Below the pieces are notes generated by a model. The model worked only from the letters and a program-made list of their open reading frames with translations. It had not been told where the DNA came from and searched no databases. From Myxococcales bacterium (GTDB lineage: Bacteria > Myxococcota > UBA727 > VGSZ01), in the NCBI GenBank assembly GCA_023248635.1, contig JAHFED010000001.1, positions 124,001-188,000 on the forward strand: 64,000 nt of DNA. The letters are read 5' to 3'. The position numbers and the translations under genes were made by a program. The stretch's first letter is position 1. Each line of letters starts with the position of its first letter. Positions 3,433 to 52,498 of this stretch are shown piece after piece.

Positions 3433-3475
3433 TTCAAGACGCGCCCGCGTCTTGAACCAGCAGAACTTCAAGGCG
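3433..3475. repeat. 24-bp palindrome with a following half unit
   Basis: Arms TTCAAGACGC and GCGTCTTGAA enclose GCCC at 3433-3456. A 10-bp spacer CCAGCAGAAC and a degraded half palindrome (TTCAAGGCGCG) follow, running into the 3' end of the next gene. The same palindrome and spacer recur near 13.15, 52.1 and 52.4 kb. This copy lies in the 100-bp gap between two tandem minus-strand lipoprotein genes. Confidence 0.8.
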
Positions 3476-6290
3476 CGGCGACCGGTCGTTCGTCCGCGCC
3501 CAGATCCGGAGCTGCCCCCTGCGGAATGGGCTCGCCGTCGATGTCGCTGAGCACGCCGAGGCCGACGAGGCCGACGTCGACGAAGGGGTGCAGGGGATCC
3601 TCGCTCAGATGCCCGTCGCTGGTCAGCGCGCCAGGGGATGCGAAGAAACAATTCAGCGGCGAGCAGCCGACGATGGACTCGCCCTCGAGGCCCTCGACGA
3701 CGAAGCCGACCCGCCCGAAGGACGAGGGGAGCACGCCGACCTCTGCGGCCTGCACGACGCTGTTGTCGAGGGCAACCTCGGGTCCCAGGGCGAAAGCCGG
3801 CGCCCCAAAAAGGATGGTCAAGTGGCGAAGAGCCCCGGCGTCGACGTCGACGGCGAGGCCTCGGCTCTTGATGATGCTGGCCTCGATCTGAGCGGTGCCC
3901 GCGCGCACGCCGATCCCAGTCGAGGTGACGATGGTTCGCACCAGGCTCAGGTCGAGGGTGCCGTCGACGGCCACAGCCTCCTCGTCACCCTCGCCACCGA
4001 GCAGCGCGCCAGCGACGTCGATGCGAGCGTCGACCAACTCCAGGGACCCGGTGCCGACGACGCCGCTGCGGCTGGACGAGATCTGGCCAGAGCCCCGCAG
4101 CACGCCTCCCTCGAGCAAAACCGCGACGTCGACACCGGCGATGACGGCGCCTTCGAGGGTCGCCGTGGCGTCGGTGACTGTGAGCACGGGCTCGGTGGGA
4201 TCGCTGTCGGTTTGCAAGGTCGCCGCCAGCACGGCGTTCACGCCGCCAGCGACGATGGTGGGCCCGAGCAAGCTGTCGGCGTCGACGACGAAGAGGCCGC
4301 CTCCTGCGGCCTGCGCTCGAGCAATCACGCAGCGCTCCAATTCCGTGGTCGATCCCTGGCTGCTGAGCGCACCGATCACCGAGTCGGCAAGCACGGAGGC
4401 GCCGGCGTCGACGTCGAGCTGGGCAATGGACGAGCCCGAGACCGAGACGCGGCCGCCGTCGACCTGAACGCCGCCGATGTCGGCGTCCAGGATGCGCACG
4501 TCTTGAGCGACGACGACATTGCCCGCCACCGTGAGATCCTCCAGGTCACCTCCGGCCACGAACAGATCCCCCGACAGCGGCAGCGAAGCCTGTTCAAAGC
4601 CATCCGACCGTTGGTAGTCGACGCCGTCGAACACGAAGCCCCCCTGCAGTCCAAGGCCGTCGGGCAAGCGGCCGGCAAAGGGGAGGTGCTCTCCGACAGC
4701 GAGTTGAAGAGACTGGAAGCGATGGCGCGCCGCCGTTTCGAGAGCGGCAGCGATGGACGCAAAGGGCGTCGCGGCAGAGCCGGTGCCCGAGATGTCGGAG
4801 CCACGGACAGCGTCGACGAAGGGACCGGCATCTTCGACGACGACCTCGAGCTCCACGGTCACACCGAGACTGCCTTCGTCGTAGGCCGAGACTCGAAAGT
4901 GGTAGCGCTCGCCAGCGGACCCGGCGGCGATCGAAACGATGGGGACGTCGACGGGCCCGGCCAAGACCTGCACGGTGTCGTTTTCGTCCTGCACGATCTC
5001 CCAGGCTGCGATCAGACCCGAGTCGTCGCGGGCACCCGAGGCGTCGATGGTGAAGATGCGCCCTGGCGTGGCAAACAGGGTCGCCGGCAGCACCAGCTCG
5101 GGTGCGAGGTTTTCCGCCGCCGGATCGACGACGACGCGAACAGGATCGGGCGACGAAGCAGCCAGCCCGTCGAAGGCGATCACGTGAAACAAGAGGGTGC
5201 CCGCCGTTGAGGGCGCGGTCAGCACGTCGGCAAATCCCGTCACCCGCTCCGCCGGCGGGCCCAGGACCTGGCGTACCTCCACCGAGACAGCGTCGTCGTC
5301 GGCGTCGCTGGCGGTGGCCGCCACGCGAAAGCGCGCCCCCGGCCGCACCTGCAGATCGCCGCCGCCCTCGATCACCGGCGCCGCGTTGGCTGGGGAGACG
5401 ACATCGACAGCGACGACGACGACGCCGCCGGAGACATTGTCTTGGCGCCTCTCAGTGGTGAGGAGCAAGCGCCCTGGCTGACGAGGTGCCGTGAATTCCT
5501 CATCGCCCCGGTCGAGGGGCGTGCCATCCGCCGCCGCGACGATGAGGCTGGGATCGACGGCGACGACGCCCAGGGGGGCCACCACGGCGGGGACCACGAG
5601 CGCGCTCGGCGGCACCGTCGTTGTTTCCGGGGGCCACACGATGGCGGCGGCGCGCGCGATGCGTCGCCCCGCGTCAAGCGTGGTGCCGTCGTCGACGACA
5701 ATGGAGCAAGGCAGGCGCAGGGGCTCGACGCTGACGCGCAGCTCCTCACCCACCACATCCACCACGACCTCGCCCCGCACCGGGCAACGGGGGGTCACCA
5801 CCGGAGCAAGTGCGGCAGCAGGCCAATGGAACTCGAACGAGATCGGGCCTTCGCCGACGGCGTCCGGCGGGCTCCCCGACACGGCGGGAACGAAGGCGCG
5901 CGGAGGCAGCTCGGCAGCCACCTCGACGGCAACCTCGTCGACGTCGGCCTTGTCGTCGATCTGGGCTTGCAGCTCAAAGACCAGCCGGGCTGGGCCCAGG
6001 GGAGCGTTGAACACTGGCGTCGACGACGACGGGTTCGAGAGCACCACGGCTGGCCCCTCGCGCTGGCTCCAAGACAGCGTGGCCTCGCCCGTCAGCGCCC
6101 GCGAGGACGCGCCGTTGAGCTGCACCCGAGCCCCTTCGACGACGACGAGGTCGGCGCCGGCGAGGGCCACAACCTCGGTGGGGGCTGTGGGTTGTCCCGG
6201 GTTTGCCGGGGTCGAGGGCGCACGCGCGACGAATTCGCAGCTGGACAGGCAGGCCACGGCAAACAGGACAAAGGCCATCAACGAGCGCAC
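3468..6290 (-). CDS. Lipoprotein with PKD-like domains and a beta-helix
   Basis: About 940 residues from the GTG at 6290. An in-frame ATG at 6371 would add 27 very basic residues, and an ATG at 6278 would give MAFVLF. I prefer 6290 or 6278 because they give a normal lipoprotein signal ending in CLSSC. The N-terminal half contains PKD/REJ-like Ig-fold domains (for example 'VQLNGASSRAL', 'WSQREGP', 'ASDADDDAVSVEV', 'DASGARDDSGLIAAWEI'). From about residue 500 it switches to a right-handed beta-helix of the DUF1565 type, beginning 'VDAVRGSDISGTGSAATPFA' and ending with 'APDLGADE', a usual C-terminal signature of that fold. The likely role is a surface-exposed binding protein. No catalytic residues are apparent. 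It lies 100 bp upstream of the modular lipoprotein on the same strand and diverges from the phosphosugar mutase. Confidence 0.8.
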   Translation of the reverse strand: MRSLMAFVLFAVACLSSCEFVARAPSTPANPGQPTAPTEVVALAGADLVVVEGARVQLNGASSRALTGEATLSWSQREGPAVVLSNPSSSTPVFNAPLGPARLVFELQAQIDDKADVDEVAVEVAAELPPRAFVPAVSGSPPDAVGEGPISFEFHWPAAALAPVVTPRCPVRGEVVVDVVGEELRVSVEPLRLPCSIVVDDGTTLDAGRRIARAAAIVWPPETTTVPPSALVVPAVVAPLGVVAVDPSLIVAAADGTPLDRGDEEFTAPRQPGRLLLTTERRQDNVSGGVVVVAVDVVSPANAAPVIEGGGDLQVRPGARFRVAATASDADDDAVSVEVRQVLGPPAERVTGFADVLTAPSTAGTLLFHVIAFDGLAASSPDPVRVVVDPAAENLAPELVLPATLFATPGRIFTIDASGARDDSGLIAAWEIVQDENDTVQVLAGPVDVPIVSIAAGSAGERYHFRVSAYDEGSLGVTVELEVVVEDAGPFVDAVRGSDISGTGSAATPFASIAAALETAARHRFQSLQLAVGEHLPFAGRLPDGLGLQGGFVFDGVDYQRSDGFEQASLPLSGDLFVAGGDLEDLTVAGNVVVAQDVRILDADIGGVQVDGGRVSVSGSSIAQLDVDAGASVLADSVIGALSSQGSTTELERCVIARAQAAGGGLFVVDADSLLGPTIVAGGVNAVLAATLQTDSDPTEPVLTVTDATATLEGAVIAGVDVAVLLEGGVLRGSGQISSSRSGVVGTGSLELVDARIDVAGALLGGEGDEEAVAVDGTLDLSLVRTIVTSTGIGVRAGTAQIEASIIKSRGLAVDVDAGALRHLTILFGAPAFALGPEVALDNSVVQAAEVGVLPSSFGRVGFVVEGLEGESIVGCSPLNCFFASPGALTSDGHLSEDPLHPFVDVGLVGLGVLSDIDGEPIPQGAAPDLGADERPVAAP

Positions 6291-13020: not shown

Positions 13021-13153
13021 CGGCGCCTGGGGCCTTGACCGCCCCGGAACAGCGGCGGCTGGCGAAGTCGACCTCGAGGCCGTTCCGGGTCAGACCGTAA
13101 GACGCCGGCGTGAGGGCTTCGAACTCGCGAACGAGCCGTTGAAGTTCTGATGG
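13021..13153. other. Non-coding gap, possible gene remnant on minus strand
   Basis: No intact gene is seen. The minus strand reads a protein-like stretch (LVREFEALTPASYGLTRNGL) continuing into 'EVDFASRR', with no start of its own and palindrome units at its upstream end. This may be a decayed gene end or chance. A degraded half palindrome with the spacer-like GTTCTGATGG sits at about 13132-13153. Confidence 0.25.
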
Positions 13154-13210
13154 TTCAAGACGCTGGCGCGTCTTGAAGTTTCGACGTTCAAGACGCTGGC
13201 GCGTCTTGAA
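13154..13210. repeat. Two tandem 24-bp palindromes
   Basis: Perfect units lie at 13154-13177 and 13187-13210, each with arms TTCAAGACGC and GCGTCTTGAA around TGGC. A 9-bp spacer (GTTTCGACG) gives a 33-bp period. They lie 3' of the GH63 gene, just before the multi-hairpin element. Confidence 0.9.
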
Positions 13211-13216
13211 GAACTC

Positions 13217-13418
13217 ATCCCGCGTCCGCTTGATGTTCGACCGGAAAGACGCGGGATGATGCGCGTGAAGCGCGCCCGCGGAACGCGGAGTTGGTGGGGG
13301 GCCCCGCGTCCGGCTCCGCCGGCGCCTGGGGAGGTCTGCACCAGACCTCCCAGAGGAGCATCCCCGAAGGAGATGAACGAGACCGCTCCGCGGTCGAAGT
13401 TCAGCGAGATCGGGGATC
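13217..13418 (+). repeat. Multi-hairpin intergenic element, copy 1
   Basis: One of three copies in the window (others at 22479-22617 and 44255-44467). Hairpin A is ATCCCGCGTC with GACGCGGGAT. Hairpin B is GGGAGGTCTG-CAC-CAGACCTCCC in two halves of ten. Hairpin C is an outer CATCCCCGA with TCGGGGAT, enclosing TGAAC/GTTCA and GACCGC-TCC-GCGGTC. Between A and B is a conserved single-stranded-looking core, AACGCGGAGTTGGTGG. It lies between the convergent GH63 and FG-GAP genes. No T-tract follows the hairpins. The repeated convergent placement suggests a bidirectional termination or 3'-end element, which is inference. Confidence 0.85.
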
Positions 13419-13524
13419 AAAGCCCAGAGCAGGCTTGGTGTCGACGCAAGTGGCGGCGAGGCAGGTCTCCGACGGACCGTCGCGGAGCCTTCGCTGCTCT
13501 GCGACCCACCGGCGTCGCGCAGTC

Positions 13525-22478: not shown

Positions 22479-22617
22479 CGCGCCTGCGAAACGCGGAGTT
22501 GGTGGTGGCTCCGGCGGCGCGGGGGAGGTCTGCCTCAGATCAGACCTCCCAGAAGAGCATCCCCGACGGAGCTGAACGAGGCCGGTCCGCGGTCGAAGTT
22601 CAGCGAGATCGGGGATC
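22479..22617 (+). repeat. Multi-hairpin intergenic element, copy 2 (short)
   Basis: This copy lacks hairpin A but keeps the core AACGCGGAGTTGGTGG and hairpins B and C. Hairpin B has the same ten-base arms with an 8-nt loop in place of 3 nt. Hairpin C keeps the CATCCCCGA/TCGGGGAT stem, and its inner stem is GGCCG/CGGTC with a G-U pair. The 3' boundary touches the stop codon of the minus-strand traB-like gene. The + gene on the other side ends at 22433, so this copy is also between convergent genes. Confidence 0.85.
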
Positions 22618-23371
22618 AGCCGATCTGAGCCAGCACCTGCTGGCGGATCTGGATGAACCAGTCGACGTCGGCGGCGCGGTCGGGGTCGGTGTCGAGCTGC
22701 CCCGCACGCGCGCGGGCAATGGCGTTCTCCAGCGCTTCTTTGAGCCCCGGTGGCCAGGTGCGCGAGACCTCGCGATCGGTCACCGCGCGCTTGGCCTCAT
22801 CGGACCAGTCGACGACGACGAAGCCCTCTTCTTCCAGCTGGCGTTGAAACTGTTGCACGTGCATGAAGCCCGCCGTGATCACCGCTCTCTTCGACGCTGG
22901 CAGATCGCGCTTCACCTGCTCGAACATGCGGCCCTGCCGGCCCTGCCAACCCCCGTCCCAGCCGGAGTCGACGCCGAAGACGCGCAGCCCGGCCTCCTTG
23001 GCGCAGTAGGCAACGAAGGGCATCTCGACCGGGCCTTCGCCCCAGCGGCCCGCGTCGACGGCGTCGCGCATCATCTCGATGAACACGGTGTCGGCGCCGA
23101 GCCCGGTCACGGCGGCTTTCACATGCCAGATCGAATAGGCCGGATCTTCATAGTGGTATTGATGGGTTGTCCCCACCAGGAACACAACCTGTTGGGTCGT
23201 CGGATGTCTCAGCTGCACCAGTTGCTGGGTGCGCACCTTGTCGGGGCGCAGCCGGAACTGAATGAACGTGAGCAGTCCCCGCACCGGCAGGCGACCAGAC
23301 GCAGCGCCAGCGACGACGGCGCCGACGAAGAGCAGGGCAGCACCCAGAGCGATGCGGCGTCCGAGCTTCAC
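22616..23371 (-). CDS. TraB/GumN-like membrane-anchored protein
   Basis: 251 residues from the GTG at 23371, 4 bp after the gltE-like stop. An N-terminal helix (ALGAALLFVGAVVAGAA) anchors or exports it. The rest has TraB/Tiki-superfamily features: a strand then the GTxH motif (VFLVGTTHQYHYED), 'ADTVFIEM' with a conserved-type Glu, and a C-terminal 'ITAGFMHVQQFQRQLEEEGF' resembling the family's G-x-H-x-x-G-L end. Relatives such as Tiki and TIKI-like enzymes are metallopeptidases, but the metal site here is only partly recognisable. It is last in a gltD-gltE-traB-like operon and may act on an envelope substrate of that complex. Family confidence is moderate. Confidence 0.6.
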   Translation of the reverse strand: MKLGRRIALGAALLFVGAVVAGAASGRLPVRGLLTFIQFRLRPDKVRTQQLVQLRHPTTQQVVFLVGTTHQYHYEDPAYSIWHVKAAVTGLGADTVFIEMMRDAVDAGRWGEGPVEMPFVAYCAKEAGLRVFGVDSGWDGGWQGRQGRMFEQVKRDLPASKRAVITAGFMHVQQFQRQLEEEGFVVVDWSDEAKRAVTDREVSRTWPPGLKEALENAIARARAGQLDTDPDRAADVDWFIQIRQQVLAQIG

Positions 23372-43466: not shown

Positions 43467-44255
43467 GTGGCCACCCGCAACAAAGCACCGGTCAAAGGCA
43501 CCTCCCGCGCCGTCGTCGTCGAACAGGTGCGGGCGGCTCTGCCCCGGCATCCCTTGCTGGCGGGCTGCACCGCGGCGGTGATCGAGAGCGTGCTCGCCCA
43601 CGGCCGCATCGAGGTCTTCGAGCCCGGATCGCTGCTCAGCCGCGAAGGCGACGTAGCCGACTATTGGTTGCTCTGCAGGGGCTCGACGCGCGTGTTCTAT
43701 CGATCCGCGAGCGGCGTCGAGGTCACCGTGAAGCTCTTCTCCGCACCGGCGGCCTGGGCCGAGATGGAAGTGCTTACCGGCAACCACCACATGGAAGACT
43801 GCAGCGCCGTCGACCGCGTCGTCGTCGTCCGCATCCCCGCCGCGCGCTTCGTGCACCTGCTCGAGGCCGAGCCACGCTTCATGCGCAACGTGCTGGAAGA
43901 CACTGCAGCGCGCTTCTACGTCGCGGCCCAAAGTGAAAAGCGCCTGGCCTTCGCCGCCGTCGAAGAACGCGTCGCTCATCTCTTGCTCTCGTATCTGCGC
44001 CTCTTCGGCGTCATCGTCGTCGATGGCACGGCCATTTCGGTCAAGCTCTCGCAGGCCGACATCGCCAACGGCATCGGCGCGGTGCAGAAGTCAGTCACGC
44101 GCACCCTCTCGACCTGGCAACGGCGCGGCCTCGTCTCGAAGCGCGGGGCCAGCTACGTCGTCCACGACGTCGATGCCCTGGCAGCCCTGTCCCCCATCGA
44201 CGTCGCCGGCATCGACTTCGTCGCCGGCAGAACGACAGCGCCCAAGCCCACCTGA
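43467..44255 (+). CDS. Crp/Fnr-family transcriptional regulator
   Basis: 262 residues from the GTG at 43467, only 2 bp after the upstream stop, so probably translationally linked. The N-terminal cyclic-nucleotide-binding fold is seen ('FEPGSLLSREGDVADYWLLCRGSTRVFY', 'KLFSAPAAWAEMEVLTGNHHMEDCSAV'). The long dimer helix is 'RVAHLLLSYLRLFG'. The HTH_Crp recognition element is 'LSQADIANGIGAVQKSVTRTLSTWQRRGLV'. The effector pocket lacks the FGExAL-RT core of true CRP (here EMEVLTG-EDCSA), so cAMP is not expected. No Cys cluster for iron-sulphur is seen. It may regulate its own operon and the hydrolase-like partner. Confidence 0.88.
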   Translation: MATRNKAPVKGTSRAVVVEQVRAALPRHPLLAGCTAAVIESVLAHGRIEVFEPGSLLSREGDVADYWLLCRGSTRVFYRSASGVEVTVKLFSAPAAWAEMEVLTGNHHMEDCSAVDRVVVVRIPAARFVHLLEAEPRFMRNVLEDTAARFYVAAQSEKRLAFAAVEERVAHLLLSYLRLFGVIVVDGTAISVKLSQADIANGIGAVQKSVTRTLSTWQRRGLVSKRGASYVVHDVDALAALSPIDVAGIDFVAGRTTAPKPT

Positions 44256-44467
44256 TCCCGCGTCCGCCTGATGTTCGACCGCGTTCCGAGATGGAAAGAC
44301 GCGGGATGATGCGCGTGAAGCGCGCCCGCGGAACGCGGAGTTGGTGGGGGGCCCCGCGTCCGGCTCCGCCGGCGCGGGGGGAGGTCTGCACCAGACCTCC
44401 CAGAAGAGCATCCCCGACGGCGATGAACGAGACCGCTGCGCGGTCGAAGTTCAGCGAGATCGGGGAT
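44255..44467 (+). repeat. Multi-hairpin intergenic element, copy 3
   Basis: 213 bp, starting within the Crp stop codon. Hairpins A, B and C are all present. Compared with copy 1, the A loop has a 12-nt insertion (near GCGTTCCGAGAT) while both arms are unchanged, and the innermost loop is TGC in place of TCC between GACCGC and GCGGTC. The element ends 24 bp before the stop of the minus-strand Cys-rich lipoprotein, so this copy too lies between convergent genes and in the same orientation as the other two. Confidence 0.87.
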
Positions 44468-44491
44468 GAGGCTTGGGCAGCGCGCCGGGGC

Positions 44492-52024: not shown

Positions 52025-52150
52025 CTCAAGACGCGCCAGCATCTTGAAGTTCCGTCGGTTCAAGACGCTGGCGCGTCTTGAAGCTCTGTCGGTTCAAGAC
52101 GCTGGCGCGTCTTGAAGCTCTGTCGGTTCAAGACGCTGGCGCGTCTTGAA
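52025..52150. repeat. Array of four 24-bp palindromes, 34-bp period
   Basis: Units start at 52025 (imperfect, GCCA loop), 52059, 52093 and 52127 (perfect, TGGC loop). Starts are 34 bp apart, with spacers of about 10 bp (GTTCCGTCGG or GCTCTGTCGG). The first unit is in the opposite orientation, shown by its GCCA loop. The array is in the divergent region upstream of the YfaP-like lipoprotein. Confidence 0.92.
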
Positions 52151-52342
52151 CATCCAAGCTCTGCCCCGTTGGCACGGCAGCGGACCCAAGACTTGCCACA
52201 CCCGCCGTGCGGCAACAACGAATCGGCCCCAGGTCTCTTTCTGAAGTCCGTCTGCTGTCCAGAAGACGCGGCACCGCACGGTCGACTCTGGGCGGTGCTA
52301 CAGTGCCGCACCTTTGCCGACCTACGGCGGAGTGTTCGCCGC
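52151..52342. other. Non-coding stretch between palindrome arrays
   Basis: No gene is seen. It contains a small inverted repeat (TTGCC at about 52192 with GGCAA some 18 bp later) and a TACAGT that could be a -10 box at about 52299, without a convincing -35. It should hold promoters for one or both flanking divergent genes. Confidence 0.3.
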
Positions 52343-52466
52343 TTCAGGCGCTGGCGCGCCTGAAGTGCGGATGTTCAAGACGCGCCAGCGTCTTGAAGTT
52401 CTGCTGGTTCAAGACGCTGGCGCGTCTTGAAGCATGAGAACGTCAAGACGCGCCAGCGTCTCGAAG
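52343..52466. repeat. Array of four 24-bp palindromes with a compensated variant
   Basis: Units lie at about 52343 (TTCAGGCGC / GCGCCTGAA, both arms changed together), 52374 (GCCA loop), 52408 (TGGC loop) and 52442 (GCCA loop, one arm mismatch). Spacers include GTTCTGCTGG, the reverse complement of the CCAGCAGAAC spacer at 3457. The last unit ends 45 bp before the GTG of the AglZ-like gene, so it would lie in or near its leader. Confidence 0.9.
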
Positions 52467-52498
52467 TTTGCTTTCTGCGATGCCGCCCCAAGGGGCGC

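Follow-up and report, generated by a model that had tools for sequence, protein, structure and literature searches.

The multi-hairpin element that occurs three times in the window, by which we mean the whole 64,000-nt stretch of Myxococcales bacterium contig JAHFED010000001.1 that was analysed and in whose positions coordinates are given, is a non-autonomous, MITE-like transposon, and its copy number in this bacterium exceeds one hundred. It is short and non-coding, occurs as many dispersed copies, ends in terminal inverted repeats and is flanked by a target-site duplication, all of them features of MITEs. Very probably, the element inserts at CTNAG by means of a DDE transposase acting in trans, selection has left its copies mainly between convergent genes, and an older two-hairpin module, P1+B, lies inside it.

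Anatomy of the element and its target-site duplications

All three copies were found where the original prediction had placed them (Table 1). Copies 1 and 3 are 97% identical across their common 175 nt, and the folding of the three window copies is far beyond chance (z -5.2, -3.1 and -6.3 against shuffled sequence). The loop of hairpin B has 3 nt in copies 1 and 3 and 8 nt in copy 2, as described before. The 12-nt difference in hairpin A is real, but it is better explained by a deletion in copy 1 than by the proposed gain in copy 3, since across the genome a length of 210-212 nt is seen most often. No Rfam family matched at gathering score in the window, and only chance-level matches were returned around copy 1. 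What the original prediction missed are the inverted repeats and TNA duplications of a non-autonomous transposon.

Table 1. Element copies and their parts in the 64,000-nt window.
Feature	Position	Strand	Sequence
Left target-site duplication, copy 1	13215..13217	+	TCA
Copy 1, complete element, 199 nt	13218..13416	+	TCCCGCG...CGGGGA
Copy 1, left terminal inverted repeat (5' part of hairpin A, 13218-13256)	13218..13245	+	
Copy 1, core hairpin P1	13302..13333	+	
Copy 1, hairpin B	13330..13351	+	
Copy 1, hairpin C (3' arm is the right terminal inverted repeat, 13389-13416)	13360..13417	+	
Right target-site duplication, copy 1	13417..13419	+	TCA
Copy 2, lacking hairpin A and the left end; core, B (8-nt loop) and C present	about 22479..22615	+	
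Copy 2, right TNA site (the TGA stop codon of minus-strand gene 22616-23371)	22616..22618	-	TCA
Copy 3, left target-site duplication (stop codon of plus-strand gene 43467-44255)	44253..44255	+	TGA
Copy 3, complete element, 211 nt	44256..44466	+	
Right target-site duplication, copy 3	44467..44469	+	TGA

The host genome (G000) is a draft assembly of 6.53 Mb in 135 contigs, several of which end inside copies of the element. The right-end motif occurs at 214 sites, 100 forward and 114 reverse, so the element is a dispersed repeat, and the common orientation noted for the three copies holds within the window but not genome-wide. Terminal repeats number 307 genome-wide. Full copies and their contexts were studied in 1.9 Mb of sequence (29% of the genome, partly chosen for contigs with copies), which contained 56 full copies. 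The unit is about 211 nt long with sharp borders, and the full copies range from 187 to 220 nt with no coding capacity. The terminal inverted repeats are 28 bp long; the left and right ends are identical at 19 of the 28 positions and have the inner block TTCGACCGCG in common.

Exact 3-bp TNA target-site duplications flank 54 of the 56 full copies, the duplicated triplet being TCA in 40, TGA in eight, TTA in four and TAA in two. With shuffled flank pairings the mean number of matches was 31.5 and none of 20000 trials exceeded 41; one base further out, the two sides agreed in only 8 copies. The consensus of the insertion target is C-TNA-G. Two copies are nested at a TCA within another copy's B loop; when their flanks are joined they give GGTCTGCATCAGACC, a loop that is present uninterrupted 19 times, so that this empty-site evidence is paralogous, from within the same genome. 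Further copies stand head-to-tail at a terminal TNA, and a second subfamily of about 162 bp has a different left end, the same right end and TNA duplications too. Because of the terminal inverted repeats, the TNA duplications and the nesting in other copies, we conclude that the element is mobile by transposition.

Two short derivatives lie close together on one contig, a 45-bp internal deletion derivative (G000:C102:105384-105428) and a solo 56-bp hairpin C (G000:C102:106454-106509), each with TCA on both sides, and they bracket an acyltransferase-like gene. This segment (C102 105383-106510) was considered as an autonomous IS and rejected, as the enclosed frame is acyltransferase-like by eye and the flanking pieces are deletion derivatives. 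The solo hairpin C was also considered as a minimal transposing unit; only two cases were examined, and the flanks matched in one.

The copies have a mean identity of 96.7% to their consensus. The terminal repeat pattern, found 307 times here, was found 0 times in 194 other genomes of the phylum, two congeners included, which points to a recent, species-specific, MITE-like burst. No homologue of the element was detected in plasmid and phage records.

Placement at stop codons and between convergent genes

All three gaps in the window are convergent according to our own codon-usage gene caller. Genome-wide, with genes called by a simple script of our own, 38 of the 56 full copies lie in convergent, 14 in same-direction and four in divergent gaps, compared with 21%, 62% and 18%, respectively, of the non-coding CTNAG sites. 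The enrichment in convergent gaps (68% against 21%) is strong (p 6e-14), and the copies do not mostly lie in non-convergent gaps, the outcome that had been named as decisive against the original prediction. Its wording that the element is always between convergent genes is thus true of the window, and for the other copies it becomes a strong preference that is not universal. In 31 of the 56 copies the duplication is exactly the stop codon of a neighbouring gene, compared with 37% of the available CTNAG sites (p 0.003).

In convergent gaps 22% of the stop sites are occupied, against 14% in same-direction gaps of at least 200 bp and 3% in shorter same-direction ones; the difference between 22% and 14% is not significant, with small numbers (p 0.44). 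The convergent enrichment needs no convergent-specific or terminator function, given that occupancy is similar where the next gene runs in the same direction but begins far downstream of the stop; a terminator is nonetheless possible. The low occupancy in short same-direction gaps fits the loss of insertions that would cut a gene off from its promoter or operon. The same convergent enrichment has been published, with the same reading, for pneumococcal repeats and IS elements (PMC3049150). BOX, RUP and SPRITE of pneumococcus, all of them small mobile repeats, show significant enrichment between convergent genes, and the authors credit weaker selection in convergent gaps (PMC3049150).

We infer purifying selection here, and together with a stop-like target it accounts for the placement of the copies between convergent genes. 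In the proposed mechanism, a DDE-type transposase provided in trans would cut at the ends TCCC...GGGA, and insertion at CTNAG would duplicate the central TNA through a 3-bp stagger. Outside coding sequence, CTGAG or CTCAG would often be a TGA stop codon in this GC-rich genome, so that insertion would duplicate the stop and leave the gene intact. Selection would remove copies that land within coding sequence or a short distance in front of another gene, and those that remain would be concentrated in convergent gaps. A target that is often a stop codon may in this way allow a small transposon to exceed one hundred copies in a gene-dense, GC-rich genome.

The P1+B core in related genomes and its relation to gene ends

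The core (hairpin P1, then hairpin B with a TTGGGNGGGGGCC lead) also occurs outside the MITE. In the congeners G001 and G002, P1+B occurs in elements with quite different termini (e.g. CAGGCTGAGGTGAAAA...TTTTCACCTCAGCCTG) that also form flanking hairpins, and P1+B without these termini was found in G003 (same family), G005 (same order) and G032 (same phylum). With a covariance model trained on 14 sequences, P1+B was clearly detected in six genomes out of 189 in the phylum, and a seventh was borderline. In an alignment of 45 matches, 94.9% of the pair cells were paired and 17 of the 20 pairs showed changes on both sides. The covariation score of this alignment, which was fitted to the model, was 0.447, compared with at most 0.078 with slid partners. 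In a free MAFFT alignment of the 14 sequences, 8 of the 20 pairs were doubly changed, a number reached by 0 of 500 shuffles.

The position of P1+B relative to genes is also similar in these relatives, on counts that rest on few copies. Nine copies in G003 (the six strongest and three long forms) have B at most 8 nt from the stop codon of a gene pointing at B, three of the four matches in G005 have B at most 2 nt from a stop codon, and in three of the five matches in G032 a stop is formed at the end of B. Duplications of 4 bp were sought around the elements of G001, G002 and G005; a few pairs match by eye (G002 L266, L267 and L272; G005 L298 and L300) and most do not. In the G005 elements L298-L300, the stems of the upstream hairpins vary from copy to copy, and CTAG stands at both edges in two of the three.

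On these comparisons, P1+B appears to be a structured module older than the MITE, with a close relation to stop codons and different mobile termini within the genus. The MITE model alone does not explain this conservation across different termini, which counts against it. We tentatively consider a further reading, possible though more doubtful than otherwise, in which P1+B is a new structured module that moves between mobile ends and is set exactly at stop codons in several families of the phylum. If so, it could serve as the recognition structure by which a mobility system targets stop codons, or act as an RNA module at the 3' end that lets the host tolerate insertions. Because this covariation-supported module stays at gene ends as the mobile termini around it change from species to species, the idea that mobile elements bring host-friendly 3'-end structures with them can be tested directly.

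The original prediction had taken the element for a bidirectional terminator or 3'-processing RNA. That the host maintains it as such, the element having spread and been kept because convergent genes need it, seems unlikely to us. The strong hairpins and the convergent enrichment speak for such a role, as does a P1+B that covaries and abuts stop codons in relatives without the terminal repeats described here. In three copies, moreover, a group II intron lies immediately behind the P1 hairpin, and terminator hairpins are homing sites of some group II introns. However, a U-tract was not found: a scan of the gaps of copies 1 and 3 for Rho-independent terminators (a hairpin with a T-rich tract) returned 0 sites. 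The occupancy of long same-direction gaps, not significantly below that of convergent gaps, and the absence of the terminal repeats from congeners also argue against a host-maintained terminator. The young copies are too similar, and their variation too small, for covariation to show selection on structure, and the TNA duplications show arrival by transposition, whatever the later role. A canonical terminator is accordingly unsupported, while a 3'-end role for P1+B is possible because the covarying core abuts stop codons in relatives. Before a repeated hairpin between convergent genes is labelled a terminator, its flanks should be examined for target-site duplications.

The three intron-bearing copies carry the 5' end of the intron (C14:559, C106:87 and C5:83; loci L217, L218 and L139), inserted at the same base and on the minus strand. 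It matches Rfam RF02001 with 90.5 bits in one copy, and the contigs end inside the intron. An intron-type reverse transcriptase was not found.

Candidate drivers, other mobility models and known systems

For the transposon as we understand it, we infer a DDE mechanism and a transposase acting in trans. A transposase bounded by these ends was not found in the host genome. Searches for an autonomous copy, whose ends would diverge just inside the repeat, returned only MITE variants and group II intron junctions; such searches could miss an autonomous copy that shares the subterminal hairpins or lies in an assembly gap. The driver has therefore been lost, is missing from the assembly, or has the subterminal hairpins in common with the MITE.

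The only two DDE_Tnp_1 matches in the genome are both copies of an IS4/Tn5-type transposase, one full (L139:3319-4707) and one truncated (at the end of L140), on contigs C5 and C59 of G000. Both directly adjoin the same position of the element, the start of GGCGCGGGG. This transposase was rejected as the driver: Tn5-like ends (GATCC.ACACA) are found in its relatives, transposases of the IS4/Tn5 type duplicate about 9 bp of target, and it gives the impression of an independent insertion next to a copy. A reverse transcriptase was also rejected, as the only RVT_1 match is retron-like. The retron-like locus (L216, G000:C11 about 74500-77150, with RVT_1 at 75544-76155 on the minus strand) has three similar structured repeats of about 250 nt, a pair on one flank and a single one on the opposite flank, that resemble multiple msr-msd units.

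The duplications favour TCA over TGA in element orientation (40 to 8), and the bias persists outside stop codons (18 to 2). It is not predicted by a symmetric TNA transposase and counts against the model. An IS110- or IS607-like recombinase element, with strand exchange in a short common TNA core, would explain this oriented insertion and the two flanking triplets that nearly always match. We nevertheless regard such an element as highly improbable, as DDE ends typically show just such terminal inverted repeats with a conserved subterminal block, and left and right flanks agree even where the triplet is one of the rare ones (TTA, TAA or TGA).

Spread of a REP/BIME-type repeat by a Y1 (RAYT) transposase is barely credible: the element is palindromic, intergenic, near stop codons and of high copy number, but the unit of about 211 nt has terminal inverted repeats, PF01797 had 0 matches at E <= 0.01 in the host genome, and exact TNA duplications, not expected from single-strand Y1 transposition, largely refute it. 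Known REP/BIME palindromes are likewise extragenic and near gene ends, but are units of 20-40 bp with GTAG or CGTC tags, linked to RAYT (PMC3733652, PMC2817692), whereas the element here has TNA duplications and no RAYT.

Among the known systems that it resembles most are prokaryotic MITEs such as Chunjie of Geobacter, QMITE2 of Coxiella and Correia (PMC10969869). These likewise are about 200 bp long without a gene, have terminal inverted repeats, direct target repeats, stable hairpins and many truncated copies, and are a target for other mobile elements. In contrast to them, the element described here is GC-rich, its TNA duplications are often at stop codons, and its two-hairpin module covaries in other genera under other termini or without such termini. 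A 3-bp TNA duplication is the mark of the IS1031 group of the IS5 family and is common to both, but the TCCC...GGGA ends are unlike the quoted ISLrh ends (GAACCTG...) (PMC12016507). An IS5-type transposase was not found in the host genome. SPRITE lies close to the 3' ends of genes; BOX, RUP and SPRITE are unrelated in sequence and differ in termini and target, and the U-rich tail is a feature of SPRITE (PMC3049150).

A second repeat family was also observed in the window, at 3433-3476, 13152-13212, 52026-52152 and 52375-52467. It consists of TTCAAGACGC-N4-GCGTCTTGAA hairpins with variable loops, often in short tandem runs with a spacing of 34 nt, and has 59 perfect copies in the 1.9 Mb.
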